In this document: piece by piece, positions 1,925 to 56,530 of the stretch
Layout of the letters: each line of letters starts with the position of its first letter
Numbering within the stretch: the first letter of the stretch is position 1
Assembly (NCBI GenBank): GCA_947561585.1
Contig: CANNZV010000876.1
Coordinates: 124,001-188,000 of the forward strand
Direction: 5' to 3'
Length of the DNA stretch: 64,000 nucleotides
DNA from: Caprella mutica
Lineage: Eukaryota; Arthropoda; Malacostraca; Amphipoda; Caprellidae
Position numbers and translations under genes: made by a program
The notes under the pieces: model-generated
The model's database searches: none
Told to the model about the DNA's origin: nothing
Seen by the model: only the letters and a program-made list of their open reading frames with translations

Positions 1925-2400
1925 TTAAGGGGACCTCCCCCAAAATTTTGAAAAAAAATTATTATTGAAGTTATGGTTCTGAAACTTTGTATGTATAAAT
2001 AAAATTGAATTATCTATCGTTTTTGTTCCTGACATTTTTTCGATTAGAACCATAGAAAACGAGTTATTCGAATTTCGAACAAATTTCGAACCATTTTCAA
2101 AAACCTAGGCTTTTTTTTTTGGTTGAAGCTAGAGCATTGCGGTTTTTTGCATTCGATTCTCCATACTGATATCTTCAATATGATTTTCTTCGATTTTTGA
2201 TTTTCGAATGGGTTTTCTAAATTTCGACTTTTTCATAAAAAGTAAACCAAAATTTTGAAAAAACAATTTTGTAGGGAAAAATTTTTTTACAACAAATTCG
2301 AAAATCAAAAATCGAAGACCATCATATTGTAGATATCATTATGGAGTATCGAATGCAAAAAACCGCAATGCTCTAGCTTCAACCAAAAACCAGAAAATGA
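1925..2400. mobile_element. TTAA-flanked foldback MITE, truncated copy
   Basis: The left end reads TTAAGGGGACC at 1925-1935. The following 250 bases match, in the same orientation, the reverse complement of 34372-34130, including CTATCGTTTTT and GACATTTTTTCGATTAGA. An internal inverted repeat (about 2123-2210 against 2299-2388) folds into a long hairpin around GAAGCTAGAGCATTGCGG. No matching GGTCCCC right end is visible, so this copy appears truncated. The TTAA flank suggests piggyBac-type mobilisation, which is an inference. Confidence 0.6.
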
Positions 2401-3031
2401 GGTTTGAATTACAAGATTTGTAGACGTCAGAATTAGTAGGAATATCCTTTCATAGTTTGATGATCTGACACGCAGCGTCCATCCACTTCGAAGGTTTAGG
2501 GGCAACTGACTAATCTCTCTTTGCATTCATTGGTGTGGGCGTGCTACACGGGTATGTTAGATACCAGATATAGCAATATAATTAATTATTACGAATTATA
2601 ATTGTCTGAAAGATTGTTTTTAGAGTACATATTGACTCCCTACCCCCCGGCCCACTTTCCCCTTTCTTCCTCTCCCCAGGGGGTTAGAGTTATACGAGAC
2701 CTCTGGTATTTTGCACACACTATAGAAAGGTTATAAAGAAACTATTTACACAATGAAAAAAAGATACAATTTTGAGATTTCTTCGGGGGCGGTCCCCTTG
2801 ATAACAAAGATTATTTTCAATAATAATCTAGAGAGGAGACACACCCACCTCTTCCATCGACAGCTTGTAGCCGCAAAACTATTGTACGTAGTTGCCAGAT
2901 GCACTATTCAAAAGATGCAGAATGGGTACTCTACATCCCAACAGTAATATGCGAAACCTAGGACAAGTACATTGTTTGCTATGTGGAGAAAACACATCTG
3001 GGAATTGCAGTTCTCGTCAGTCTCGAAAGGG
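2401..3031. other. Spacer without recognisable genes
   Basis: There are short ORFs only (for example 2753-2947), with no family resemblance. A pyrimidine-rich block (about 2640-2685) precedes a polypurine tract. Confidence 0.4.
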
Positions 3032-4248
3032 TTAAGCATTGAAGCCAAATAGAAGCTTTCTACAATAATACTGTGGTTATCAGTTACTTTGTTCTGTAGT
3101 TTCGTATTATTCTTTATTCAAACATATAATTTGTCATGGACAGTAACTCTACAGTGGCCAGAATATTGATATTTTTCTTGGATCCATAGTTCACATCTTT
3201 AAACCTGCACTAAGATATGTATTCCTGCCTAACTACTTCTTCTCAGTCCTTTGTATTTATTTCCTCATGATGTCAATGACATGGTGTAAGAGTAGTGCAA
3301 GACTTTCTGTTTGATTAAGTTATGCATTTCTTCTGTTATCTCAATTAGTCTCTATAATAAACCATTTTGATTATAGACAATTTTTTAGATATAATTAATA
3401 AAACAAAATAGAATCATATTTTATCGTCATGATTTAATTTTTGAAGGTTTATATTCTGTATTGTTAGTGAAATAAAGTTGTATGTATAAATCCTTTTAGA
3501 GAAAAGCTCTACAGAGTTTCAACTTTACAAAATTCAATTTTTTTGTTTTTAATTAGCATTGTTTATTTTATAATTAATTATAAATCTTCACCTATTTCCC
3601 ACTCTCCCAAGAATTTATAATTTTCCCCATTTAATGTACTAAGATTCCCTCTCTCAATTGAGTACCCAAAATTTATATTTATTTCAAGTCTGAAATTACA
3701 TATACATCTATGTAATGAAAGTATTATCCTATTTTCAAATTTCATTTTCTTTTAGAAATGATTTATTATCAATTTATAAATTTTTGAATGACATATCAAA
3801 TGACTAATATCAAGGGATATAAAAAGCTGTGCAATTATAAAAATGCTTCTATGCTAAGAAATTATGACCTAGTTATCTTATTATATTCTTTTAAGAATTC
3901 TTAGATGTTATTTTACTGAAGTAAACTCATTGGATTCATTGACTGTTATCTTTTCATTTAGCTACCTAATTCTATCTGTTCTTTTATATTTTTTAGTGTT
4001 GTATTCATTGATATTTTCAACACTAAATGTTGGTAAGTGATTTGGTTTGTGAGGGAACTTTTATATCTAACTAGCTACTCCTTCAAAGTATTTTGTAATT
4101 ATTCTTATTATGTTACAGTAGATATCTATGGTGAATCTAGAATTCTGAATACGAAACTACCCCAAATAGCGCCAGTAGTCTTCTAAAGCTGATGACCCTT
4201 ATTGACAGGCTAAATTAAGTTAAATATCTAATAGATCGATTGTTTCAG
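3032..4248 (+). repeat. 5' flank of zinc-finger duplication unit 1
   Basis: From GCATTGAAGCCAAATAGAAG (3034) onwards this matches 17616-18488 plus 22661-23163 on the plus strand, and 62995-61900 plus 56945-56531 on the minus strand. The homology runs into the acceptor TTGTTTCAG immediately before the zinc-finger ATG. It probably contains the promoter, a noncoding first exon and an intron, but no first exon can be placed from sequence alone. The site TTTAGAAATGATTT near 3754 is the uninterrupted counterpart of the BEL/Pao insertion site in unit 2. Confidence 0.8.
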
Positions 4249-5520
4249 ATGGAGTCTGTAGGTGAAGGTCCTGCAATATCATATGGAGAGGGAATTATTG
4301 CTGACTCATCCAATGTGATCTACTTGGTGGAAGAGGAAGACATCAAGCCAGATGTTGCTGATCTCTTGTGTCAAGGTGTGGATGTTGACCCTCTAGTAAA
4401 GGGAGTAGACCAAGAGGAACTTAACGCTCATAATAAATTCTATAATGATGTTAAGAACGAAGTTTCTGATGATCATATAGCTATCAAACATGAAAATACT
4501 AATAATGATAACAGAAGTGAACCTTATTCCGAGATGAATCAGCTACTCGAAGGAAAAATGAATGATGAATATTTTTCAAATATAGAAGATTATGGATCAT
4601 TTTCTAGTGAAAATTTTTGCTATGCTAATAGTCCTGAAAAGACAGTTACCCATGAAAAATGTGAGAAGCCATTCAAGTGCAATTATTGTGATAAAGCATT
4701 CTCTTATTCATCTGCTCTCATTAGTCATCAAAGAATTCACACTGGTGAGAAGCCATTCAAATGCAGTTATTGTGATAAAGCATTCTCTCAGTCATCTGTT
4801 CTCCATAATCACCAAAAAATTCACACTGGTGAGAAGCCATTCAAATGCAGTTATTGTGATAAAGCATTCTCTCGTTCATCTGTTCTCAATAGACATCAAA
4901 GAGTTCACACTGGTGAGAAGCCATTCAAATGCAGTTTTTGTGTTAAGACATTCTCTCGTTCATCTGGTCTCAATAGCCATCAAAGAGTTCACACTGGTGA
5001 GAAGCCATTCAAATGCAGTTTTTGTGATAAGACATTCTCTAATTCGTCTACTCTCAATAATCATCAAAAAATTCACACTCGTGAGAAGCAATTCAAATGT
5101 AGTTTTTGTGATAAGACCTTCTGTAATTCGTCTACTCTCAATAATCATCAAAAAATTCACACTGGTGGGAAGCCATTCAAATGCAATTATTGTGATAAAT
5201 CATTCCCTCATTCATCTGCCCTCAATAGTCATCAAAGAATTCACACTGGTGAGAAGCCATTCAAATGCAATTATTGTGATAAGGCATTCCCTCAGTCATC
5301 TCGTCGCAATAGTCATCAAAGAATTCACACTGGTGAGAAACCATTCAAATGCAATTATTGTGATAAAGCATTCTCTGAGTCATTTACTCTCAATAATCAT
5401 CAAAGAATTCACACTGGTGAGAAGCCATTTAAATGCAGTTATTGTGATGAGGCATTTATTAGTTCATCTCATCGCTCTTACCATCAAAGAGTTCACACTG
5501 GTGAGAAGCCATTTAAATGA
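4249..5520 (+). CDS. C2H2 zinc-finger protein, 10 fingers (copy 1)
   Basis: This is probably a nuclear sequence-specific DNA-binding protein. The ATG at 4249 follows the 3' splice acceptor TTGTTTCAG and is conserved in all three paralogues, so I take it as the start (423 residues). Residues 1-142 are acidic, with a [20 protein letters not shown] block that matches no named domain I recognise. They are almost identical in the other copies. From about residue 143 ten consecutive C2H2 fingers follow (C-x2-C-x12-H-x3-H) with TGEKPF linkers. The ORF ends in TGEKPFK followed by TGA, that is, inside the linker where copy 2 has a further finger. The 31-bp minisatellite begins directly after the stop, so the 3' end was probably lost by a rearrangement into the repeat. 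The targets are unknown. KRAB and ZAD domains are absent. Confidence 0.85.
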   Translation: MESVGEGPAISYGEGIIADSSNVIYLVEEEDIKPDVADLLCQGVDVDPLVKGVDQEELNAHNKFYNDVKNEVSDDHIAIKHENTNNDNRSEPYSEMNQLLEGKMNDEYFSNIEDYGSFSSENFCYANSPEKTVTHEKCEKPFKCNYCDKAFSYSSALISHQRIHTGEKPFKCSYCDKAFSQSSVLHNHQKIHTGEKPFKCSYCDKAFSRSSVLNRHQRVHTGEKPFKCSFCVKTFSRSSGLNSHQRVHTGEKPFKCSFCDKTFSNSSTLNNHQKIHTREKQFKCSFCDKTFCNSSTLNNHQKIHTGGKPFKCNYCDKSFPHSSALNSHQRIHTGEKPFKCNYCDKAFPQSSRRNSHQRIHTGEKPFKCNYCDKAFSESFTLNNHQRIHTGEKPFKCSYCDEAFISSSHRSYHQRVHTGEKPFK

Positions 5521-5905
5521 CTTGGGTGTGGATTGTACACAAGTGAAATCATTGTGGTGCGGTTCGCACAGGAGTGAAATCATTGTGGTGCGGATTGCAC
5601 AGGAGTGAAATCATTGGGGTGCGGATTGCACAGGAGTGAAATCATTGGGGTGCGGATTGCACAGGAGTGAAATCATTGGGGTGCAGATTGTAAAGGAGTG
5701 ATATAATTGGGGTACAGTTTGCACAGAAGTGAAATTATTGGGGTACAGTTTGCACAGATGTGAAATTATTGGGGTACAGTTTGCACAGAAGTGGAATCTT
5801 AGGGATGCAGATTGAACAGGAGTGAAATCATTGGGATATGGATTTCACAGGAGTGAAATCATTGGGGTGTAGATTGAACAGGATAGGAGTGAAATCTTGG
5901 GATTT
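5521..5905 (+). repeat. 31-bp minisatellite 3' of zinc-finger copy 1
   Basis: About 12 degenerate copies of a unit of the form GGAGTGAAATCATTGGGGTG plus CAGATTGCACA. The same unit follows copy 2 at 24215-24905 but is absent after copy 3. Confidence 0.9.
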
Positions 5906-18493: not shown

Positions 18494-19496
18494 TGTTCTG
18501 GTTCTACCCTCCTAAGTTATGAACACTACTTTGTTCTGAGTTTTAAATTTTCATGGGATTGGAAACTTGATCAGCAACAATTTTTATTCACTGGTAAGAC
18601 ATGGTAGATGGTTACAGCCAGATATTTGCACGTAATCTGCGGACAATAACACAGAATCAATAACGGAAATAGACTTGAATAATTCGGAAAAAATACCTAC
18701 TATGGAATAAATAATTCAGAAAACATAACTACTATGAAATAAATAATTAATGGATACATTCAGCCATCAAAGATAAATCTTTAGGTTACTTATACGGATT
18801 TTAGGCAGTTTAGTAAATAAATATATGTTGAAGTACATGAAAAATGAAAACTGGTCAAACAATTTTTTTTTTTTTTTTTTTTTAGAAATTACACTTAGGG
18901 CAAATCACGAATCATCGGCCAGTCCCACACCACCGGTCACACAAGAAAAAACGAACCCACAACTGCCATCACACCTGGCATCCATGATACCTACAGGTAT
19001 CACGGATACCAAGCGAACAGACACAAAACAACAATCAGAAAATCGCCCCCTCCCACACAACCGAAGATGCGAAACTGACCGACAACTCGCAAGTCACCCT
19101 AGTGCTGTTTTTAGGCCTACGAGTAAAGCTAAATAAGGAACTAACTATTTAATAAACTAGCTATAAATAAATCCTAAATCTTGCAAATTTTTAACCAACT
19201 TACATGGTATAGATTTTCCTCTCACAATATCAACACAATGGCACGAATTTAAGGCACTTGTTTACAGTATGAAAAGATTAAAGAGACTGAATTAATTGTG
19301 GTCACGGCATTAGGTAATAATAAGGAGAACGTAAAAACTCGCCTATCAATGCCTAAGGAATAAATTTAACAAAGCTAATTAGCAAACAAGAACATATAAC
19401 GAAATTTAAAATGCTAATTAGCCAACAAGAATATAGAAGGAAAATTTTAAAAGGTTAATATATATAATTATTACATGGAGGCTCATAGCCAACACA
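18494..19496 (-). repeat. 3' LTR of the BEL/Pao element
   Basis: On the coding strand it begins TGTGTTGGCTATGAGCC and ends CCAGAACA. It is preceded by the polypurine tract. Confidence 0.93.
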
Positions 19497-21653: not shown

Positions 21654-22655
21654 TGTTCTGGTTCTACCCTCCTAAGTTATGAACACTACTTTGTTCTGAG
21701 TTTTAAATTTTCATGGGATTGGAAACTTGATCAGCAACAATTTTTATTCACTGGTAAGACATGGTAGATGGTTACAGCCAGATATTTGCACGTAATCTGC
21801 GGACAATAACACAGAATCAATAACGGAAATAGACTTGAATAATTCGGAAAAAATACCTACTATGGAATAAATAATTCAGAAAACATAACTACTATGAAAT
21901 AAATAATTAATGGATACATTCAGCCATCAAAGATAAATCTTTAGGTTACTTATACGGATTTTAGGCAGTTTAGTAAATAAATATATGTTGAAGTACATGA
22001 AAAATGAAAACTGGTCAAACAATTTTTTTTTTTTTTTTTTTTAGAAATTACACTTAGGGCAAATCACGAATCATCGGCCAGTCCCACACCACCGGTCACA
22101 CAAGAAAAAACGAACCCACAACTGCCATCACACCTGGCATTCATGATACCTACAGGTATCACGGATACCAAGCGAACAGACACAAAACAACAATCAGAAA
22201 ATCGCCCCCTCCCACACAACCGAAGATGCGAAACTGACCGACAACTCGCAAGTCACCCTAGTGCTGTTTTTAGGCCTACGAGTAAAGCTAAATAAGGAAC
22301 TAACTATTTAATAAACTAGCTATAAATAAATCCTAAATCTTGCAAATTTTTAACCAACTTACATGGTATAGATTTTCCTCTCACAATATCAACACAATGG
22401 CACGAATTTAAGGCACTTGTTTACAGTATGAAAAGATTAAAGAGACTGAATTAATTGTGGTCACGGCATTAGGTAATAATAAGGAGAACGTAAAAACTCG
22501 CCTATCAATGCCTAAGGAATAAATTTAACAAAGCTAATTAGCAAACAAGAACATATAACGAAATTTAAAATGCTAATTAGCCAACAAGAATATAGAAGGA
22601 AAATTTTAAAAGGTTAATATATATAATTATTACATGGAGGCTCATAGCCAACACA
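21654..22655 (-). repeat. 5' LTR of the BEL/Pao element
   Basis: 1002 bp, nearly identical to the 3' LTR. It should contain the element's promoter on the minus strand. The internal sequence joined to it (GTAATATGGTGATTTGC) shows no evident tRNA-complementary primer-binding site. Confidence 0.93.
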
Positions 22656-23163: not shown

Positions 23164-24171
23164 ATGGAGTCTGTAGGTGAAGGTCCTGCAATACCAGATG
23201 GAGAGGAAATTATTGCTGACTCATCCAATGTGATCTACTTGGTGGAAGAGGAAGACATCAAGCCAGATGTTGCAGATCTCTTGCGGCACGGTGTTGATAT
23301 TGACCCTCTAGTAAAGGGAGTAGACCAAGAGGAACTTAACGCTCATAATAAATTCTATAATGATGTTAAGAATGAAGTTTCTGATGATGATATAACTATC
23401 AAACATGAAAATATTGATAATGATAACAGAAGTGAACCTAATCCCGAGATGAATCAACTACTCGAAGGAAAAATGATTGATAAATATTTATTAAATATAG
23501 AAGATTATGGATCATATTCTAATGAAAATTTTGTCTATGCTAATAGTCCTGAAAAGACAGTTACCCATGAAAAATGTGAGAAGTCAATCAAGTGCAATTA
23601 TTGTGATAAGGCATTCTCTTATTCATCTCATCTCAATAGTCATCAAAGAATTCACACTGGTGAGAAACCATTTAAATGCAGTTATTGTGATATGGCATTC
23701 TCTAATTCATCTACGCTCAATAATCATCTAAGAATTCACACTGGTGAGAAGCCATTCAAATGCAGTTATTGTGATAAAGCATTCTCTCAGTCATCTGTTC
23801 TCAATAATCATCAAAGAATTCACACTGGTGAGAAGCCATTCAAATGCAATTACTGTGATAAAGCATTCTCTCGTTCATCTGTTTTCAATAGACATCAAAG
23901 AGTTCACACTGGTGAGAAGCCATTCAAATGCAGTTTTTGTGATAAGACATTCTCTAATTTGTCTACTCTCAATAATCATCAAAGAATTCACACTGGTGAG
24001 AAGCCATTCAAGTGCAGTTATTGTGATGAGGCATTTTCTAGTTCATCTCATCGCTTTTACCATCAAAGAGTTCACACTGGTGAGAAGTCATTCAAATGCA
24101 ATTGCTGTAGTAAGGCATTCGATCAGTCATGTGATCACAAAAGTCATCAAAGAATTCACACTGATGAATAG
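23164..24171 (+). CDS. C2H2 zinc-finger protein, 7 fingers (copy 2)
   Basis: 335 residues. The ATG at 23164 follows the conserved acceptor. Residues 1-142 match copy 1 with few substitutions (acidic, with the [20 protein letters not shown] block). Seven C2H2 fingers then run to HTDE and a TAG stop. The first four and the sixth have close counterparts in copy 1, which has three more fingers, so finger number changed by unequal exchange or deletion. Finger 5 has SNLSTLNN where copy 1 has SNSSTLNN. The last finger is aberrant (CNCCSKAFDQSCDHKSH) but keeps its Cys/His ligands. It is probably a nuclear DNA-binding protein with unknown targets. The BEL/Pao element sits about 500 bp upstream, in the presumed promoter or intron, and may affect expression. 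Confidence 0.85.
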   Translation: MESVGEGPAIPDGEEIIADSSNVIYLVEEEDIKPDVADLLRHGVDIDPLVKGVDQEELNAHNKFYNDVKNEVSDDDITIKHENIDNDNRSEPNPEMNQLLEGKMIDKYLLNIEDYGSYSNENFVYANSPEKTVTHEKCEKSIKCNYCDKAFSYSSHLNSHQRIHTGEKPFKCSYCDMAFSNSSTLNNHLRIHTGEKPFKCSYCDKAFSQSSVLNNHQRIHTGEKPFKCNYCDKAFSRSSVFNRHQRVHTGEKPFKCSFCDKTFSNLSTLNNHQRIHTGEKPFKCSYCDEAFSSSSHRFYHQRVHTGEKSFKCNCCSKAFDQSCDHKSHQRIHTDE

Positions 24172-24214
24172 GCATTCATTCTAGAGAAAATATTTTGATG
24201 CTGCGTAGTGAAAT

Positions 24215-24905
24215 ATATCATTGGGGTGCTGATTGTACAGGAGTGAAATCATTGCTGTGTGGATATACAGGGGTGATATCAATTCATTGAGGTACAGATT
24301 GTACAGGGGTGAAATCAATGGGTTGCAGATTGCACAGGAGTGAAATCATTGGACTGCTGATTACACAGGAGTGAAATCATTGGGTATGGATTGCATAGGA
24401 AGGAAATCATTGGGGTGCGGATTGCGCAGGAGTGAAATCATTGGGATGCGGATTGCACAGGAGTGAAATCATTGGGGTGCAAATTGCCCAGGAGTGAAAT
24501 CATTGAAGTGCGGATTGCACAGGAGTGAAATGATCGGGGTGCGGATGTCACAGTAGTGAAATCATTTGGGTGCAGATTGCACAGGAGTGAAATCATTGGG
24601 ATGCAGATTGTACAGGAGTGAAATTATTAGGGTGTAGATTGCCAGGAGTGAAATCATTGGGGTGCAGATTGCACAGGAGTGAAATCATTGGGGTGCAGAT
24701 TGCACAGGAGTGAAATCATTGGGGTGCAGATTGCACAGGAGTGAAATCATTGGGGTGCAGATTGCACAGGAGTGAAATCATTGGGGTGCAGATTGCACAG
24801 GAGTGAAATCATTGGGGTGCAGATTGCACTGGAGTGAAATCATTGGGGACGGATTGCACTGGAGTAAAATAATTGGGGTTCGATTGTACAGGATGGAAAT
24901 CTTGG
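24215..24905 (+). repeat. 31-bp minisatellite 3' of zinc-finger copy 2
   Basis: About 22 copies of the same unit as at 5521-5905. Five to six central copies (about 24655-24830) are nearly identical, which suggests recent expansion. Confidence 0.92.
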
Positions 24906-25129
24906 GATTTGGATTTTACAGATGACATTAAAAGAGATAGTAATACTCAAGTCTGAAAAAATAATAATGTGATAATAATAGTCAGGTCTAAATGCTTCCA
25001 AACATGATTTGATCATGTCACAGAGGGTAGGGTAAGGTTGTACTTTTTCGTAGGGGTCCACAAACAGGACACTAAATTTCATGATCAAAACACCTATAAT
25101 TGTTATGCATTATATAATCATTTGAAAAG
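24906..25129. other. Spacer after the minisatellite
   Basis: No gene is seen. This part has no counterpart in unit 1, where the mariner inverted duplication occupies the position. Confidence 0.4.
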
Positions 25130-31887: not shown

Positions 31888-33526
<1,639 letters not shown>

Positions 33527-39026: not shown

Positions 39027-39099
39027 TAATGGAGAGAATTGTTTCATATAGGTAAATTATTTATATAAAATGTTGAACTATACCATTTACAGTTCTACT

Positions 39100-39226
39100 T
39101 GATCCAAATGAAATAATATTTTATCCAAGTGAATTTCAATTTGATCCATGTGAAATTCAATTTGATCCTTATGCAATTGAATTTGATCAATGTGAAATAA
39201 TATTTGATCCAAGTGAAATTGAATAT
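39100..39226 (+). repeat. Left arm: six 21-bp units
   Basis: Units such as GATCCAWGTGAAATTCAATT plus T repeat at exactly 21 bp. The mirror copy is 47695-47822. Confidence 0.85.
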
Positions 39227-39246
39227 TTTATCATCCTGATAAGGTA

Positions 39247-39560
39247 GGGTCACTAATACTCGGCACTTTAAGAGACTGCCGATAGTCCTCTCTTCATTAC
39301 TCAAGTACAAGTAATCGTATACTGAACAGCGGAGGTGTTTATTGTAGGGAATTTTGAGGAGAATCATTATGATATGATTGTTTATCATGTTAACATGCTT
39401 TAATTCATGTTAAACAGATTTTAAGATTCTCTTTCCATAATATCCACATGTCGGCAGTTTTAGTTTAGAAGTCGGCACGTAATGTATTATGAGTCGGCAT
39501 TGTTAATTCTATAACACGGCACATATATATTCGTAAGGTCGGCACTTTCTTTCAAATTAT
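39247..39560. promoter_or_regulatory. Left subterminal TCGGCA motif cluster
   Basis: CTCGGCAC, TGCCGA, GTCGGCAG, GTCGGCAC, GTCGGCAT, ACGGCAC and GTCGGCAC occur within 39260-39545. By analogy with other cut-and-paste elements these are candidate transposase-binding sites (inference). Confidence 0.55.
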
Positions 39561-40040
39561 ATATTCTACGAAAATATTCTCTAATTAAGTTTTTGCGTAC
39601 GTGAAAACTATCACCGTGTAATATAATATACTGATAACATATAAATAAAGAATGATATTATAAATTTTTATATTATTTTGTGTAGGGCCCTACTGAAATA
39701 GGAGCTATCAAATGTCCCTTTGTATCGAGGAATGAACACAGCTTGAAAAGCTTTATGAGTATTAATAAAGGGTAATAATACGACAATTCAATGTATCACA
39801 GTGTTTAAGTGAGATTATCACAGTCAAAATATAAATCCTTTGGCATTATTGCTTTCAAACGGGAATGTTTGAAAAAAATACGACTAATAAATAAATAAGT
39901 ACGAACTATTATAGAAAATTGGTCACTAATGTAAAATATATTCCTTTAATAATGATAACATAAATAGAGAACAAAAATATTCAACAAAAAAAATCTTTAA
40001 CTGTCAACCTTAAATTAGTTTAATTAATAGCATATTATTA

Positions 40041-43000
40041 TCATTCAATGTCATTATTTTCATTGCAGCCTTCACAAATGAAGTCACTTTCATCTTCTGA
40101 TTGATCGAGAGTCATGGATCGAGACTCTAAATAAACTTTAGAGACACATTTTACGTGCATTTTCCTATCACATGAATCGCAATTGATCCATTTGACTTTT
40201 CTACCCATCTTTTCATCTTCTGAATACATTTCCTTGCAGTAAACACATTCCCAATCGTCATTCTTCTGCTTCTAAAATTTTCTTCCCATGTCTTTTTTCA
40301 AACAATATCCACGATAATGTGAAGTGCTTACAGCAGAAAGCAGCCTATCTTTGGGGGCTTTTCGTTTCTTGTATGTAATTTTTCCCTCCCAAAAGATCGG
40401 GTCTTTCGAGCATGAAGCTTTACCTAGAGGAATAGGACAGCTAGGAAGATTCTTGTTCCTCTCTTTTATTGTTATAACACTTGTAGCAATAGCAGAAGTA
40501 ACACTCAACTTGTGCACGGAGGTAGGTTCAGGAGTAGAAGATGAAGGAGCAATGGTTGAAGCTTCCGAGCTTTCAGGAGAGTTTTGAGTATGTATAGGAA
40601 CAGAAGTAATCGTTGGTGGTATCAAACTACAGATATCTTTCGGAGAATTTGTCTCCACCGGCGCTGGAGAAGGCAAAGATACTGAAGGAGTTAACAGAGT
40701 GGACACACTGTACGGTGGTGATGGTGACCGGGATGCCAGAGTCCTATTAGTTGAAATTATGACTGATCCAGTGGTTGGTTCATTAGGATGTTCGTAATAG
40801 CAGGGTGACTGAGACGCATTGAGTATGGAAGACGTCGACAGAGGAAGATATGGCGATGACATGATGCATGGGAGATTATTTTTAGAATGAACATTTGATT
40901 CAGCAGGTGGTAGATCGGATGAGAGAACAGAGGACATAAGAGACACAGGGAATGGCTGAGAAACAGTTACTGACATAGACATACTTGATTCACTTGCGAA
41001 GACAATTGGAGTAGATGGGATCAATGATGGAGAAGTGGATTCTGTTGGATCAGACCTATCATCCAAATGTTCAACGATTGGTTCCTGTTGAAATGGTTCG
41101 TTTAATAAAGAAGTCGGTTCTTCTAGAAGTCTGGACAAGGATATATTTGTTTCGGAGAAGTTTGTTCCAGTAATGTTTGCATCATAAACTTCAGTGAAGT
41201 CGTCCAACATTATGACCCCTGGTTCAGATATCTCCTTACCTTTTCGAACAATAGCTTTGAAAGCTTCACTCAGAACATTCCTGTGAACGTTTGATCCATA
41301 TCTACATTGTTCAAATATCTCAGCACCTAACTCTTCTTTCAGGATTCTTTCTGTTATACGGTAGTCATTATTTGAAGTTGCAGGAGAAATATCTTCCACT
41401 TGTGGGTTTGGAGGCTCTACATCTGGCACTGCATTCTCTTCTTGAGTCTCCTCTATTTCAAAACACTTGCTGTAATCTACGCTGTTCTCGTTGAGAGGAA
41501 ATAGTCCTGTAACTCTGAAGCCATTAACTATTGAAGATGTCTCTATTCTCCTCAATACTTTCAACAGCATTGGAGCGACATCCTTCCTCCGAACAACAGA
41601 GTTAGGGTTCGTACGTTGGAAGGTATGCACTTCCTGTCTCCAGTACTCTTTTAGTGGCTTAAACACTGAGACATCTGCAGGCTGTAGAAGATGAGTAGTG
41701 TTGGGTGGAAGCAGATAGAGGACAACTTCATTTTCCTCGCAGAACTTCGAGACCTGCATGCTAAGATGAGTTTTGTGACCGTCAATGAAGAGAATTACAG
41801 GCCGTTTGATATTATGCTCGTTCAAATAAGGTACAAAACCATTCGAGATGAACTCGAAAAATGTCTCTGACTTCATCCAGCCTGTCTCTGTCGCACCTAT
41901 CATAAATTCTTCTGGTACCGACCTAACAATATCTGAGGGCACACGGAGATATGGATAGACTACCATTGGCTGCACTATATCACCTATTGCGTTGAAAGTA
42001 CCGAAAAACGTCAGAGTCGATTTTTCAGGACCTGGACCAAGTTCGTAAACATTTTTCCACCCTTTTAAGCCAACAACTTTGCCCGTTTTAGGGCAAAGTT
42101 GAATATTAGATTCATCTGAATTATAGATTCTGGATGGATCTTCAAACATTTCTCCCCAATTAAATTCTGCAATATTTCTCCTAAGTTCTCCGAACCATTC
42201 TCTGATGGATCCCTCCGTCACTCCAACACGAGCCTTGGATACCCTTTCAGGTGTACGTAGGGATAGTGATGGATGGCGCTTCATGAAACACTGGGAAACA
42301 AGTTTATTATTAATAAGATACAATATCAATATTATTTTGATTTAAAATATACATGTTAATCAATAGAGCCAAAAAACTCACAGTGAACCACGTTTTCCCG
42401 GGCCTGTCATCTTTGAAGGGAGCTTTAATTTTCGGATTTGAAAATTTTATCAGTCTCTGAACCGTATTCAAAACGTCCTCTTTCTTCGGTGGAAGCCCCC
42501 TCCTATTGCCTCTAGTTATCCAACTATAATAGAATAATGTACTTAACTAGGAGTTCAGTTTTATCGTATTAAGTCATATTAATTCTGTATATGGACAGTT
42601 GACCTCTCCTCTTAATTCAAAACTTCTTATTAAGGTGATATTTGTGATCTATTTGCTTTATCGAATATTTCCCAAATTTGTATGGTGAAAAAATTAATAC
42701 ACTAGAAAACTATAACTTCTCCAATTGAATTTCTTCCTACTAAATAGCATTTCATTAAGGTGAAAAAAAACATTTCCTCCAAGTGAAAAAGCACTTCATG
42801 AAAGTGAAATAGCATTTCATCAAAATGAAAAAGCACTTCATCAAAATGAAAAAGCACTTCATCAAAATGAAAAAGCACTTCATCAAAATGAAAAAGCACT
42901 TCATCAAAGTGAAAAAGCATTTCATCAAAATGAAAAAGCACTCCATCAAAATGAAAAAGCACTTCATCAAAGTGAAAAAGCACTTCATCAAAGTGAAAAA

Positions 43001-44985
43001 GCACTTCATCAAAGTGAAAAAGCATTTCATCAAATCGAAAAAGCACTTCATCAAAATGAAAAAGCACTTCATCAAAGTGAAAAAGCACTTCATCAAAATG
43101 AAAAAGCACTTCATCAAAATGAAAAAGCACTTCATCAAAGTGAAAAAGCATTTCATCAAAATGAAAAAGCACTTCATCAAAATGAAAAAGCACTTCATCA
43201 AAGTGAAAAAGCACTTCATCAAAGTGAAAAAGCACTTCATCAAAGTGAAAAAGCACTTCATCAAAATGAAAAAGCACTTCATCAAAGTGAAAAAGCATTT
43301 CATCAAAATGAAAAAGCACTTCATCAAAATGAAAAAGCACTTCATCAAAGTGAAAAAGCACTTCATCAAAGTGAAAAAGCACTTCATCAAAGTGAAAAAG
43401 CACTTCATCAAAATGAAAAAGCACTTCATCAAAGTGAAAAAGCACTTCATCAAAATGAAAAAGCACTTCATTAAAGTGAAAAAGCATTTCATCAAAATGA
43501 AAAAGCACTTCATCAAAGTGAAAAAGCATTTCATCAAAATGAAAAAGCACTTCATCAAAATGAAAAAGCACTTCATCAAAGTGAAAAAGCACTTCATCAA
43601 AATGAAAAAGCACTTCATCAAAGTGAAAAAGCATTTCATCAAAATGAAAAAGCACTTCATCAAAATGAAAAAGCACTTCATCAAAGTGAAAAAGCACTTC
43701 ATCAAAATGAAAAAGCACTTCATCAAAGTGAAAAAGCACTTCATCAAAATGAAAAAGCACTTCATCAAAGTGAAAAAGCACTTCATCAAAATGAAAAAGC
43801 ACTTCATCAAAGTGAAAAAGCACTTCATCAAAGTGAAAAAGCATTTCATCAAAATGAAAAAGCACTTCATCAAAATGAAAAAGCATTTCATCAAAATGAA
43901 AAAGCACTTCATCAAAATGAAAAAGCATTTCATCAAAGTGAAAAAGCACTTCATCAAAATGAAAAAGCACTTCATCAAAATGAAAAAGCACTTCATCAAA
44001 ATGAAAAAGCACTTCATCAAAGTGAAAAAGCACTTCATCAAAATGAAAAAGCACTTCATCAAAGTGAAAAAGCACTTCATCAAAATGAAAAAGCACTTCA
44101 TCAAAGTGAAAAAGCACTTCATCAAAATGAAAAAGCATTTCATCAAAATGAAAAAGCACTTCATCAAAATGAAAAAGCATTTCATCAAAGTGAAGCATTT
44201 CAATAAAATACAAATCGAATCAATGTGCATTCAAATACATTTATGAACATGATTTTATTTATATAAATTTATGTAAATAAACTTCTTAAATAAATTTTTG
44301 TGTAGATAAAAATCATATAAATAAATATATTTTGATTGAAGAAACTCTATAAACACTTGGAAAAAACGCTTTTTCACTTCGATGAAATGATATTTTACTT
44401 TGATGATATGATATTTTACTTTGATGATATGATATTTTACTTTGATGATATGATATTTTACTTTGATGATATGATATTTTACTTTGATGATATGATATTT
44501 TACTTTGATGATATGATATTTTACTTTGATGATATGATATTTTACTTTGATGATATGATATTTTACTTTGATGATATGATATTTTACTTTGATGATATGA
44601 TATTTTACTTTGATGATATGATATTTAATTTTGATGAAATGCTTTTTCACTTTGATGAAGAGGAATTTCAGTTGGTGGAAAGTCAATTGTATAAGGTAGC
44701 TATACATAGATTTATATGTCGCTTATAATTTGATTGAATAATAATTATAGGTATAGTGCACACTTACTCTACTATTTCCTGCTCATGCTCAGCAGATAAA
44801 TAAGGATCCTTGCCCATTTTCCGACCTACTGGAGTTCTTCCAGCAATCTTGTCTTGTAGTGTAGATCGTGGAACAGAAAATTTTCTAGCTGCTTCTTTCT
44901 TTGGCATTCCATTTTCTGTAACAGCCCGAATAGCAGATTCCATCTGTTCTTCCGAATAACGAAAGAGAGATCCTCGTTTTGACAT
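40041..44985 (-). CDS. pogo/Tigger-type transposase with HTH_psq, DDE_1 and PHD-like finger
   Basis: Three exons with good splice signals: 44985-44768 (donor GTAAGT), 42523-42382 (acceptor TATTATAG, donor GTGAGT) and 42290-40272 (acceptor GTTTCCCAG). Phases fit, giving about 792 residues. Exon 1 has a pipsqueak-type helix-turn-helix (KKEAARKFSVPRSTLQDKIA). Exon 2 continues with DWITRGNRRGLPPKKEDV, and the join to exon 3 gives KTWFTCFMKRHPSLSLRTPE. The DDE_1 core has Asp in YNSDESNIQL, LFIDGHKTH and QPADVSVFKPLK, a DD35D spacing. A Ser/Thr/Pro-rich stretch of about 300 residues follows. An in-frame TAG (40274-40272) ends exon 3, but the same frame continues through 14 codons and 40229-40041, encoding a PHD-like finger (CVYC, CDSC, MHVKC, CEGC). 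The stop is either a mutation, readthrough or spliced out. The transposase core is intact. Confidence 0.85.
42770..44195 (-). repeat. 21-bp array A in intron 1 of the transposase gene (about 67 copies)
   Basis: The plus-strand unit is AAAAAGCACTTCATCAAAGTG, with recurring A/G and C/T variants at two positions. The period is exactly 21, and three reading frames stay open throughout, so the long ORFs here are repeat artefacts. Confidence 0.95.
44370..44655 (+). repeat. 21-bp array B, opposed to array A (about 13 copies)
   Basis: The plus-strand unit is ATGATATTTTACTTTGATGAT. Its complement matches the array A unit at most positions, so arrays A and B lie in inverted orientation about a roughly 170-bp AT-rich spacer. 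Both outer flanks carry a related GAAATTCAATTGG or AATTTCAGTTGG motif. Confidence 0.93.
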
Positions 44986-45189
44986 CCTAATTACTACCTA
45001 CTACTAATGTTGATTTATGATTGTATGAATGATATGTGAAATGATCTAACATTAGACTGTGGATATAATTATGTATATAATTATCAGTAAATGTTCGTTT
45101 TTTTTCTTTGAATTTACTTTTTTTTACTCTACTTGCAAATCTCATTCAACCAAAGAAGAATGAAAAGGCCGAGTGAAAAATTATTATTT

Positions 45190-46024
45190 TATTGATTCGG
45201 CACCCCAGATGCCGAATCAATAAAAGGCACTTTCCAAAGTCGGCACCCAAGATTCCGAATCAATAAAGGGCATTTTCCAAAGTCGGTACCCAAGATGCCG
45301 AATCAATAAAGGGCACTTTCCAAAGTCGGCACCCAAGATGCCGAATCAATAAAGGGCACTTTCCAAAGTCGGCACCCAAGATGCCGAATCAATAAATGGC
45401 ACTTTCCAAAGTCGGCACCCTCTAGTTCTCTTAGGTGCCGAGTTAAAGAAAAAAAATCCGACATCCATGCCGAATTAAGAAAAAATGTATAATTTGATAT
45501 TTTTTATGCAATATTGAATGCAACTATTTATTATATTATAAATAAAAGATAAAAATATGTTCATTAGAGAAATCAAATCAAATACTATTAGTTGGCAGTG
45601 GGTGCCGACTTATCAAAAGACGCGCTTTTTTATGGTAAATTATCGGCACCCTAATAAAATTAAAAGCTAACAAGTAAACGTAAAACCTTTTATACTTAAT
45701 TGAAAGAATAAATATTAAAGAAACCAAAACAATTCATGCAACACGAAAATACTAGTTTTTACACTTTTCACAGTCATTATGTTATACACACTTCACTAAT
45801 GATATAATTTGTCAGCAACGTCTGTCACCAACCTCTCCTAACGAACTTTGATTTAAAACTAACGGTTCGCGCGCAAAATCGTTCAAACTACATCCGTGAT
45901 TGGTTAGAATGCTGTGGAATCATTCGATGTTATCATTTGCAAGATCTAATAGACGGATATCTTATTTTCTCGGCATTGGTGTGTTTGGTGCCGAGCTATG
46001 AACAGTGCCGAGTGAACGTGACCC
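45190..46024. promoter_or_regulatory. Right subterminal TCGGCAC cluster with 43-bp tandem repeat
   Basis: Five 43-bp repeats (about 45190-45426; GCCGAATCAATAAAGGGCAC plus TTTCCAAAGTCGGCACCCAAGAT) and further GTGCCGAC, TCGGCACC, CGGCATTG and GTGCCGAG motifs lead to the terminus. The transposase promoter probably lies between here and 44985 (inference). Confidence 0.6.
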
Positions 46025-46189
46025 TACCTACCTCACTTGTGTCTTTGTTTGTTGGTTGGTTGCAAGAAAAATGTCACGATTTTAATATTTAAAATATAAA
46101 AAATATTTGTATAATTTATTTACATAAAATTAATTTATATAACATTTATTTACAACTTTATGTAAATAAATTTTATGTATATTGATATT

Positions 46190-47580
46190 GATAGGCCAAT
46201 TAAAATGGTGGACTTTGAAGATTATTATGGTGAACAATGATAGATTATTATGGTGGGCAATGATAGATTATTATGGTGGGCAATGATATATTAGGGTGGG
46301 AATGAAAGATTGTGGTGGCCAATGAAAGATTATGGTTGCAATGAAAGATTGTGGTGGGCAATGAAAGATTGTGGTGGACAATGAAAGATTATGGTGGGCA
46401 ATGAGAGATAATGGTGGGCGATGAAGGATTATGGTGGGCAATGAAGGATTATGGTGGTCAATGAAGGATTATGGTGGTCAGTGAAAGATTATGGTGGGTA
46501 ATAAAGGATTATGGTGGGCAATGAAGGATTATGGTGGGCAATGAAAGATTATGGTAGGCAATGAAGGATTATGGTGGCCAATGAAAGATTATGGTGGGCG
46601 ATGAAATATCATAGAGGGCAATGAAAGATTATGGTGGGCAATGAAAGATTATGGTGGGCAATGAAGGATTATGGTGGGCAATGATATATTATTATGGTGG
46701 GCAATGATAGATTATTATGGTGGGCAATGATAGATTATTATGGTGGGTAATGAATAGAAGATTATGGTGGGTAATGAATAGAAGATTATGGTGGGTAATG
46801 AATAGAAGATTATGGTGGCCAATGGAAGATTATGTTGGGCAATGAAAGATTATGATGAGCAATGAAAGATTATTGTGGATAATAAATGATTATGGTGGGC
46901 AATGAATGATTGTGGTGGGCAATGGAAGATTATCTTGGGCAATGAAAGATTATGATGAGCAATGAAAGATTATTGTGGATAATAAATGATTATTGTGGGC
47001 AATGAATGATTGTGGTGGGCAATGGAAGATTATGTTGGGCAATATAAGATTATGGTTGGCAATGAAATATTATGGTGGACAATGAAATATTAGGTGGGCA
47101 ATGAAAGATTATGGTGGGCAATGAAAGATTATGGTGGGCAATGAAAGATTATGGTGGGCAATGAAAGATTGTGGTGGACAATGAAAGATTATGGTGGACA
47201 ATGAAAGATTGTGGTGGACAATGAAAGATTATGGTGGGCATAGAAGGATTATGGTGGGCAATGAAGGATTATGGTGGGCAATGAAGGATTATGGTGGTCA
47301 ATGAAGGATTATGGTGGTCAATGAAAGATTATGGTGGGTAATGAAGGATTATGGTGGGCAATGAAGGATAATGGTGGGCAATGAAGAATTATGGTGGGCA
47401 ATGGAGGATTATGGTGGCCAATGAAATATTATGGTGGCCAATGAAGGATTATGGTGGCCAATGAAGGATTATGATGGGCAATGGAGGATTATGGTGGCCA
47501 ATGAAAGATTATGGTGGACAATGAAGGATTATGGTGGGCAATGAAGGATTATGGTGGGTAATGAAGGATTGGTGACAATG
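46190..47580 (+). repeat. 20-bp array at the centre of the foldback element
   Basis: About 65-70 copies of GGGCAATGAAAGATTATGGT with indels. A higher-order block is visible: a run of variants near 46320-46560 recurs at about 47160-47410. Confidence 0.95.
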
Positions 47581-47584
47581 AGAG

Positions 47585-47842
47585 ATTATACAAATATTTT
47601 TTTATATTTTAAATATTAATTGTGACGTTTTTCTTGCAACAAACCAACCAACAAACAAAGACACAAAATGTGAGGTATCGGGAAGATAAAATATTCAATT
47701 TCTCTTGGATCAAATATTATTTCACATTGATCAAATTCAATTGCATAAGGATCAAATTCAATTTCACATGGATCATATTCAAAAAATTCACTTGGATCAA
47801 ATATTATTTTATTTGGATCAACTAGAACTGTAAATGGTATAA
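47585..47842 (-). repeat. Right arm of the foldback element
   Basis: Complement of the left arm (39083-39246 joined to 46025-46112), including CAACAAACCAACCAACAAAC and six 21-bp units. Confidence 0.85.
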
Positions 47843-53609: not shown

Positions 53610-53985
53610 TGTCCCCCTTCCAGAGGGGGACATCCACACTTTGTTCCACGTCTTGTAAAGGGGGACATCCGCACTCTGTCCCACGTCTTGCAGAGGGGGA
53701 CATCCGCACTCTGTCCCACGTCTTGCAGAGGGGGACATCCGCACTCTGTCCCACGTCTTGCAGAGGGGGACATCCGCACTCTGTCCCACGTCTTGCAGAG
53801 GGGGACATCTACACTCTGTCCCACGTCTTGCAGAGGGGGACATCCGCACTCTGTCCCACGTCTTGCAGAGGGGGACATCCGCACTCTGTCCCACGTCTTG
53901 CAGAGGGGGACATCTACACTCTGTCCCACGTCTTGCAGAGGGGGACATCTACATTCTGTCCCACGTCTTGAATCCCTCTATAGCG
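53610..53985 (+). repeat. 36-bp tandem array
   Basis: About 10 copies of GACATCCGCACTCTGTCCCA plus CGTCTTGCAGAGGGGG. The divisible-by-three period keeps several frames open. Partial copies and GACGTCTT/AAGACGTC inverted motifs continue to 54175. Confidence 0.95.
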
Positions 53986-55192: not shown

Positions 55193-56530
55193 TCAAGGGT
55201 GATTTTTTTGATGTCTACTGCGAAGAGATGAACTAGAAAATTTCCTATCACAATATTTGCATTTGAATGGCTTCTCACCAGTGTGAATTCTTTGATGCGT
55301 ATTGAGATCAGATGAATTAGAGAATGCTTTATCACAGCTATTGCATCTGAATGGCTTCTCACCAGTGTGAATTTTATGATGTCTACTGAGAACAGATGAC
55401 CGAGAGAATGCTTTATCACAGTAATAGCATTTGAACGGCTTCTCACCAGTGTGAATTCTTTGATGACTATCGAGAGCAGATGACTCATAGAATGTCTTAT
55501 CACAATAACTGCATTTGAATGACTTCTCATCAGTGTGAATTCTTTGATGACTATTGAGATCAGATGAAGTAGAGAATGCCTTATCACAATAATTGCATTT
55601 GAATGGCTTCTCACCAGTGTGAATTCTTTGATGACTATTGAGAGTAGATGACTGAGAAAATGCCTTATCACAGTAATTGCATTTGAATGGTTTCTCACCA
55701 GTGTGAATTCTTCGATGACAATTGAGATTAGATGACTCAGAGAATGCCATATCACAAAAATTGCATTTGAATGGCTTTTCACCACTATGAATTCTTTGAT
55801 GATTATTGAGAGCAGATGAAGTAGAGAATGCCTTATCACAGAAATTGCATTTGAATGGCTTCTCACCAGTGTGAATTCTTTGATGACTATTGAGATGAGA
55901 TAACTGAGAGAATGCTCTATCACAGCTATTGCATTTGAATGGTTTCTCACCTGTGTGAATTCTTTGATGACTATTGAGATGAGATGAATTAGAGAATGCC
56001 TTTTCACAATAACTGCATTTGAATGGCTTCTCACCAGTGTGAATTCTTTGATGTCTATTGCGATGAGATGACTGAGTGAAAGCCTTATTACAATAATTGC
56101 ATTTAAATGGCTTTTCACACTTTTCATGGGTAACTTTCTTCTCAGGACTATTAGCACAGCCAAAATTTTCATTAGAAAATGATCCATAACCTTCTTTATT
56201 TGATAAATATTTATCATTCAATTTTCCTTCGAGTGTTTGATACTTCTCAGAATTAGGTACACTTCTGTTCTCATAATCAATATTTTCATCTTTGATAGTT
56301 ATATCAACATCAGAAATTTCATTCTTAACATCATTATAGAATTTATTATGAGTATTTAGCTCCTCTTGGTCTACTCCCTTTACTAGAGGGTCAACATCCA
56401 CAGCTTGACAAGAGAGATCTGCAACATCTGGCTTGATGTCTTCCTCTTCCACCAAGTAGATCACATTGGATGAGTCAGCAATAATTCCCTCTCCATCTGG
56501 TATTGCAGGACCTTCACCTACAGACTCCAT
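55193..56530 (-). CDS. C2H2 zinc-finger protein, 11 fingers (copy 3)
   Basis: 445 residues. The ATG at 56530 follows the same TTGTTTCAG acceptor as the other copies. The acidic N-terminal region (about 142 residues) is conserved ([20 protein letters not shown]), with differences clustered around residues 40-130. Eleven C2H2 fingers follow. Linkers are TGEKPF except SGEKPF after finger 4 and TDEKSF after finger 7. The last finger ends RHQKNHP before the stop. Finger helices differ largely from copies 1 and 2, which suggests divergent DNA targets. All zinc ligands are present, so the protein looks functional. Its 5' flank is split by the 4.5-kb element at 57366-61880. Confidence 0.87.

Follow-up and report, generated by a model that had tools for sequence, protein, structure and literature searches.

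Organization of the locus

The window, meaning the whole stretch of 64,000 nucleotides of DNA analysed here, lies in contig C876 of the searched genome (903 Mb, 7200 contigs) and holds three nested DNA elements: a foldback element of a family termed FB-B, inside a pogo element, inside a foldback element of a second family, FB-A. The tandem arrays detected by TRF, the domains of the pogo gene and the inverted arms of the foldbacks confirm the three-level nesting with related 21-bp units that had been proposed in a preliminary description of this DNA.

The outer FB-A element occupies positions 39081 to 47839, as defined by its inverted ends (TATACCATTTACAG...CTGTAAATGGTATA) and by three uninterrupted relatives elsewhere in the genome (L072-L074). 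The element first placed at 39083 to 47842 is therefore retained with corrected limits, which become 39079 and 47841 if the flanking TA is included. Its left arm consists of six 21-bp units (TTGATCCAAGTGAAATAATAT-like) on the forward strand (39099 to 39224) and its right arm of six on the reverse strand (47696 to 47821), each delimited by TRF and unit alignment and each in agreement with the count reported before; a seventh 'unit' in the left-arm alignment is the junction beside the pogo element and is excluded. The remainder of the left arm, with its AT-rich inner end, resumes beyond the pogo element at 46031 to 46200 on the forward strand and is followed by the loop, in which a 20-bp unit is repeated 66 times (46247 to 47589, forward strand; TRF). 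This 20-bp unit is also present in all three relatives, there as inverted arrays. Minus the pogo element, the outer element measures about 2 kb, and its arms are identical to each other in 219 of 233 ungapped columns.

The pogo element and its transposase gene

The pogo element, recognized by its domains and terminal inverted repeat (TIR), spans positions 39242 to 46028, with its gene on the reverse strand. The TIR is 26 bp long with 4 mismatches and reads AGGTAGGGTCAC at the left end in the window, compared to GGGTAGGGTCAC in other copies. Insertion into the left foldback arm, as claimed earlier, is borne out, and the insertion site is a TA, copies of which are read directly from the sequence on the left (39240 to 39241) and the right (46029 to 46030). 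The element duplicates this dinucleotide: the unoccupied site, GATACCTCAC, is found in the right arm of the outer element itself and in the relatives L073 and L074, and L072 reads GATACTTCAC at the same place. A further pogo copy, in contig C145, is also flanked by TA, its ends reading TA, GGGTAGGGTCAC...CCTACCC, TA.

The transposase gene is predicted to comprise three exons, all on the reverse strand. Exon 1 (44768 to 44985) encodes an HTH_psq DNA-binding domain, assigned by domain match and bounded by a splice signal; intron 1 (42524 to 44767; GTAAGT...TAG) is predicted from its GT-AG signals, as is exon 2 (42382 to 42523) from the splice signals around it; and exon 3 (40272 to 42290) encodes a DDE_1 domain with a D-D-35-D triad, identified by domain match, its start being placed at a probable splice signal. 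A PHD-finger-like tail on the same strand (40041 to 40271), in a frame that differs from that of the DDE exon, gives weak PHD-type matches, all below cut-offs. The features by which the pogo superfamily is recognized, namely HTH_psq together with DDE_1, a D-D-3xD triad, a TA duplication and a TIR, are present. HTH_psq, DDE_1 and the PHD-like tail recur in many transposase relatives among the matches listed, and those with a species name, among the 120 of 196 matches listed, we take to be arthropods. The element resembles arthropod pogo elements in its transposase with HTH_psq, DDE_1 and a PHD-like tail, its TA target and its short TIR, and differs from them in that the window copy bears a foldback element in intron 1.

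A 43-bp tandem array detected by TRF in the pogo end (45197 to 45420, reverse strand) carries the TIR motif TCGGCAC, and possibly provides extra transposase sites. The same subterminal array is found in L005, L039 and L041, and its copy number varies among pogo copies (5.2, 2.1, 4.2 and 4.2 by TRF).

The foldback element in the pogo intron

The passenger of the pogo intron is an FB-B foldback element at 42711 to 44698, identified by its TIRs and left junction. The preliminary description had reported 67 and 13 mutually inverted units here; the arrays stand as reported, with counts of 67 and 13.7, and their full extent is widened by TIRs of their own. Inner array 1 (42795 to 44201, forward strand; TRF and unit alignment) consists of 67 units of 21 bp (TTCATCAAARTGAAAAAGCAY), a count that includes a divergent first and last unit (TRF gives 68.1 copies at 42765-44194), and is preceded by degenerate units from about 42745. 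It is followed by a junction (AAATCGAATCAAT) and an AT-rich spacer (44202 to 44371, forward strand), which may be read as a remnant of an FB-B interior, and then by the 13.7 inverted units of inner array 2 (ATCATCAAAGTAAAATATCAT; 44372 to 44658, reverse strand; TRF).

Both TIRs are degenerate and both match those of free-standing FB-B elements. Compared with the TIR of the FB-B element in contig C215, the left one (from 42711) scores 46 and the right one (from 44698) 42, against best random scores of 26 and 31, none of the 2000 window segments that served as the random set being as good in either case. The junction of about 66 bp immediately inward of array 1 (AAATCGAATCAAT) matches the same position in all four FB-B elements compared (0 of 500 random sequences as good for each), and the inner right junction matches these four more weakly, with 0, 4, 5 and 34 of 500 random sequences as good. 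The FB-B order of TIR, 21-bp array, junction and 15-bp sequence is present in the left half of the inner element and is weaker in the right half, and no true 15-bp array remains. The element is flanked by TA on the left and GC on the right, with no clear target site duplication (TSD).

Each inner array is homogenised to a unit of its own. In array 2, the clean unit lying furthest out, TTCATCAAAGTGAAAAAGCAT, is of a type also present in array 1, and this type is probably the older one. Higher-order structure was considered for the 67-unit array and rejected: its longest repeated run of unit types is 8 units long, a length that 196 of 2000 shuffles also attain.

Dispersed families FB-B and FB-A

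Free-standing FB-B elements occur throughout the genome. A pattern of the 29-base TIR, with up to 2 mismatches allowed, gave 126 forward and 122 reverse matches (248), and the reversed control gave 0 and 0. One pair of TIR matches, at C697, is separated by 4.5 kb. Ten complete elements, nine of them read whole from 18 of 30 loci (the other 12 being read at their ends) and the tenth from L038, share a single architecture of 2.2-2.9 kb: a TIR, an arm array of 9-14 units of 21 bp, 15-bp arrays and about 0.8 kb of other DNA, followed by the mirror image. Among these ten, C329, with 14 and 10 units, is the one copy whose arms differ by more than 2 units. Their open frames, judged by the two longest per copy in the ten copies, are nearly all array; the exception, 89 aa long and present in C295 and C323, was not recognised. 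No transposase was found in the foldbacks here. In C215 (L038 1351-5566), one FB-B element (2320-4833) lies within another, a second instance of one foldback nested in another, here without pogo.

The FB-A family is similarly dispersed. Searching with the outer right arm yielded 57 matches at 40 main places, one being the window; the other 39 are 78-88% identical to that arm (40 of 876 candidates scored). The three copies read whole, L072-L074, agree with the window's outer element in their ends, in arms of 21-bp units and in loop arrays of the 20-bp unit, and are uninterrupted and without pogo.

Kinship of the 21-bp units

The consensus of the window's outer arm units matches that of inner array 1 at 14 of 21 positions in a single register, the next best register giving 11, and that of array 2 equally well, in line with the earlier estimate of about 14 of 21. 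Taken alone, this match is uncommon and suggestive, not decisive. Of 5000 shuffles 29 do equally well, as do 103 of 5000 window 21-mers matched for AT content; with the FB-A family consensus the counts are 219 of 20000 shuffles (1.1%) and 466 of 20000 window 21-mers (2.3%). These last rates are what speaks for a chance convergence of two AT-rich 21-bp arrays; the TIRs, the junction and the intermediate FB-B units, however, tie inner and outer elements together and make such a coincidence hardly credible. The earlier claim that the similarity exceeds chance is upheld through TIRs and junctions, compared by way of free-standing copies elsewhere.

That link runs through FB-B, since inner and outer TIRs match poorly when compared directly, with 108 and 8 of 2000 random segments doing no worse. 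The outer TIR scores 48 against the C215 FB-B TIR, where the best random score is 28 (0 of 2000 as good), and the ends of both families contain TATACC(A/T)TTT. The unit consensuses of FB-A and FB-B agree at 17 of 21 positions, which is equalled by only 2 among 20000 shuffles and by as many among 20000 window 21-mers. The outer element also resembles FB-B at its AT-rich inner end, with 0 of 500 random sequences as good in three elements and 13 of 500 in a fourth. On the strength of TIR, unit and layout, FB-A and FB-B would appear to be kin by common descent. The inner arrays are nearer to distant free copies than to the local arm: array 1 matches the FB-B consensus at 17 of 21 positions and array 2 at 19 of 21, compared to 14 of 21 for either against the outer arm that surrounds them; the free-family set of 251 units used in this comparison includes at least 29 non-unit stretches, of junction (20) and 15-bp sequence (9).

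The passenger in other pogo copies

The analysis covered six pogo copies, those of the window, C145, C133, C30, C1668 and C6046, of which C145, C133 and C30 were found by a query outside the intron and C1668 and C6046 by the unit itself, the latter search being biased toward arrays. The question raised earlier, whether other copies hold the intronic arrays, can be answered in the affirmative: arrays are present in five of the six, and the sixth, C133, breaks off 42 bp short of the foldback end. Among the four copies found without the unit query, three hold at least part of the arrays. Both arrays are present in C145 (16.1 and 11.4 units), array 1 in C30 (7.4 units), and array 2 in C1668 (5.8 units) and C6046 (76 units), so that lengths across copies, rounded, are 67, 16 and 7 for array 1 and 14, 11, 76 and 6 for array 2. 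Because C30 and C1668 are broken within the array and the array of C6046 lies 19 bases from its contig end, the counts for these three are lower bounds. An expanded single arm of 39.7 units in C2603 lies outside pogo, and array growth thus does not need pogo. With one array comparable across pogo copies, the system offers a natural test of minisatellite-like arm expansion.

Three of the six copies (C30, C1668 and C133) end inside the foldback or within 42 bp of it, and these breaks may reflect either fragility or assembly trouble in the arrays. Break points lie near 4104 in L006, near 5330 in L007 and near 4569 in L039.

Origin of the nested arrangement

Three routes to the shared motif had been put forward, template switching, gene conversion and nested transposition of related foldback elements, and the evidence favours the last. 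The emphasis on local seeding, by either of the first two, is not supported. On that view the surrounding foldback arms served as template for the intron arrays, or converted them, after pogo had landed, and it draws on the equal unit length and the 14 of 21 match at one locus. The same arrays, however, occupy pogo copies at C145, C30, C1668 and C6046. A query with the outer arm matched only the array region in the stretches fetched around C145 and C30, and nothing in that around C133 (9.5-9.8 kb each), and C145 and C30 therefore carry the arrays with no FB-A arm in the fetched DNA, an outcome that the preliminary description had itself named as speaking against its view. The inner element moreover has the FB-B junction, its units resemble FB-B more than they do the outer arm, and both families are dispersed genome-wide, all of which leaves local seeding extremely unlikely. 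The shared motif most likely reflects the common ancestry of two related, dispersed foldback families.

A different relationship between the passenger and its family would be that tandem growth in the pogo intron gave rise to the FB-B ancestor, which later escaped as a foldback family. No intron-empty pogo was seen among the six copies examined (two of which were found via the unit, with C133 stopping 42 bp short), as this origin would have it. Against it, the ten free FB-B copies have more parts, namely 15-bp arrays and a loop; the 100 FB-B TIR matches listed are exact to the pattern, in contrast to the degenerate TIRs in the pogo intron; and FB-A shares the same kind of ends without pogo in the three copies read. 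Birth of the family within the intron is accordingly very improbable.

The arrangement is best explained by three DNA transposons nested through successive ordinary insertions, and this is in all likelihood how the locus arose; we propose that the 21-bp units of FB-A and FB-B match because both families descend from one ancestral foldback. An FB-B member, with TIR, 21-bp array, 15-bp array and loop in mirrored order, would have entered intron 1 of an ancestral pogo element, where it presumably lost most of its loop. The pogo element could then have multiplied, the foldback riding silently in its intron, while the arrays grew, shrank and homogenised separately in each arm and each pogo copy, their growth perhaps driven by slippage or unequal exchange. 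One pogo copy would finally have landed in the left arm of an FB-A member, at a TA. This order of events, suggested by the shared passenger and by ordinary nesting logic, would make the locus a record of an ordered insertion series: FB-B into pogo, the spread of pogo, and pogo into FB-A.

Foldback ends and target sites

In each of the ten FB-B copies, TATACC is preceded by C and GGTATA followed by G; one position further out, 7 of the ten show A on the left side and 9 show T on the right side. The three FB-A relatives are all flanked as C-TA...TA-G, and the outer element of the window has C on its left and A on its right. Such ends fit either a CTAG target of which the TA is duplicated or a TIR that starts with CTATACC and makes no duplication. 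A Mutator type, with TSDs of 8-10 bp, is proposed for most foldbacks (PMC4079207). The flanks of the ten FB-B copies contain no exact match of 8, 9 or 10 bp, as a Mutator-type foldback would need, and their matches at these lengths differ from those of mismatched flank pairs by at most 0.09 either way. Comparison of true with mismatched pairs over lengths 2-10 and offsets 0-3 revealed no clear excess in the ten copies, the largest, at offset 3 and length 5, being 0.40 versus 0.32. Exact matches, each of 2-3 bases, were seen in no more than 2 of the 10 copies. The two foldback families are alike in ends and unit, without a visible mover. A more far-reaching view would make foldbacks and pogo mutual vehicles, with FB-B riding pogo and palindromic arrays breaking it (3 of 6 copies), and would unite FB-A and FB-B in a deep clade whose transposase targets CTAG or leaves no duplication; this we regard as rather unlikely.

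Comparison with known systems

The FB element of Drosophila is a foldback element. Foldback elements such as this one and Tetris of D. virilis (PMC4079207) resemble the elements described here in that their inverted arms consist largely of internal tandem repeats, no transposase has been found and repeat number varies between copies. Tetris has units of about 220 bp, compared to 21 bp here, and TSDs of 8-10 bp, whereas none was seen in the ten FB-B copies. The window further differs from both systems in that one foldback copy rides in a pogo intron, and no description of a foldback inside a pogo intron was recognised in the part of the literature surveyed. Galileo, of the P superfamily (PMC3573991), is similar in that the arms of a single copy can hold unequal numbers of repeats and in the occurrence of chimeric and solo-arm copies, but has a known transposase, whereas none was found in the foldbacks here. 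FB-A, FB-B and the pogo element with its passenger are further members of already known element types.

Other tandem repeats in the window

Several further repeats accompany these elements. A 35-bp minisatellite (GGGACAGAGTGCGGATGTCCC-like unit) is found both in the window (53617-53970) and in C6046 (L041 2085-2333). The same tandem-repeat pattern occurs twice in the window, at 18678-19453 and 21838-22612, about 3.16 kb apart, and looks like a local duplication. Arrays of an 84-bp unit lie at 4661-5883, 23576-24906, 32433-32962 and 55199-56118, two of them followed by 31-bp arrays, and these 84-bp arrays may represent C2H2 zinc-finger repeats, which they resemble.
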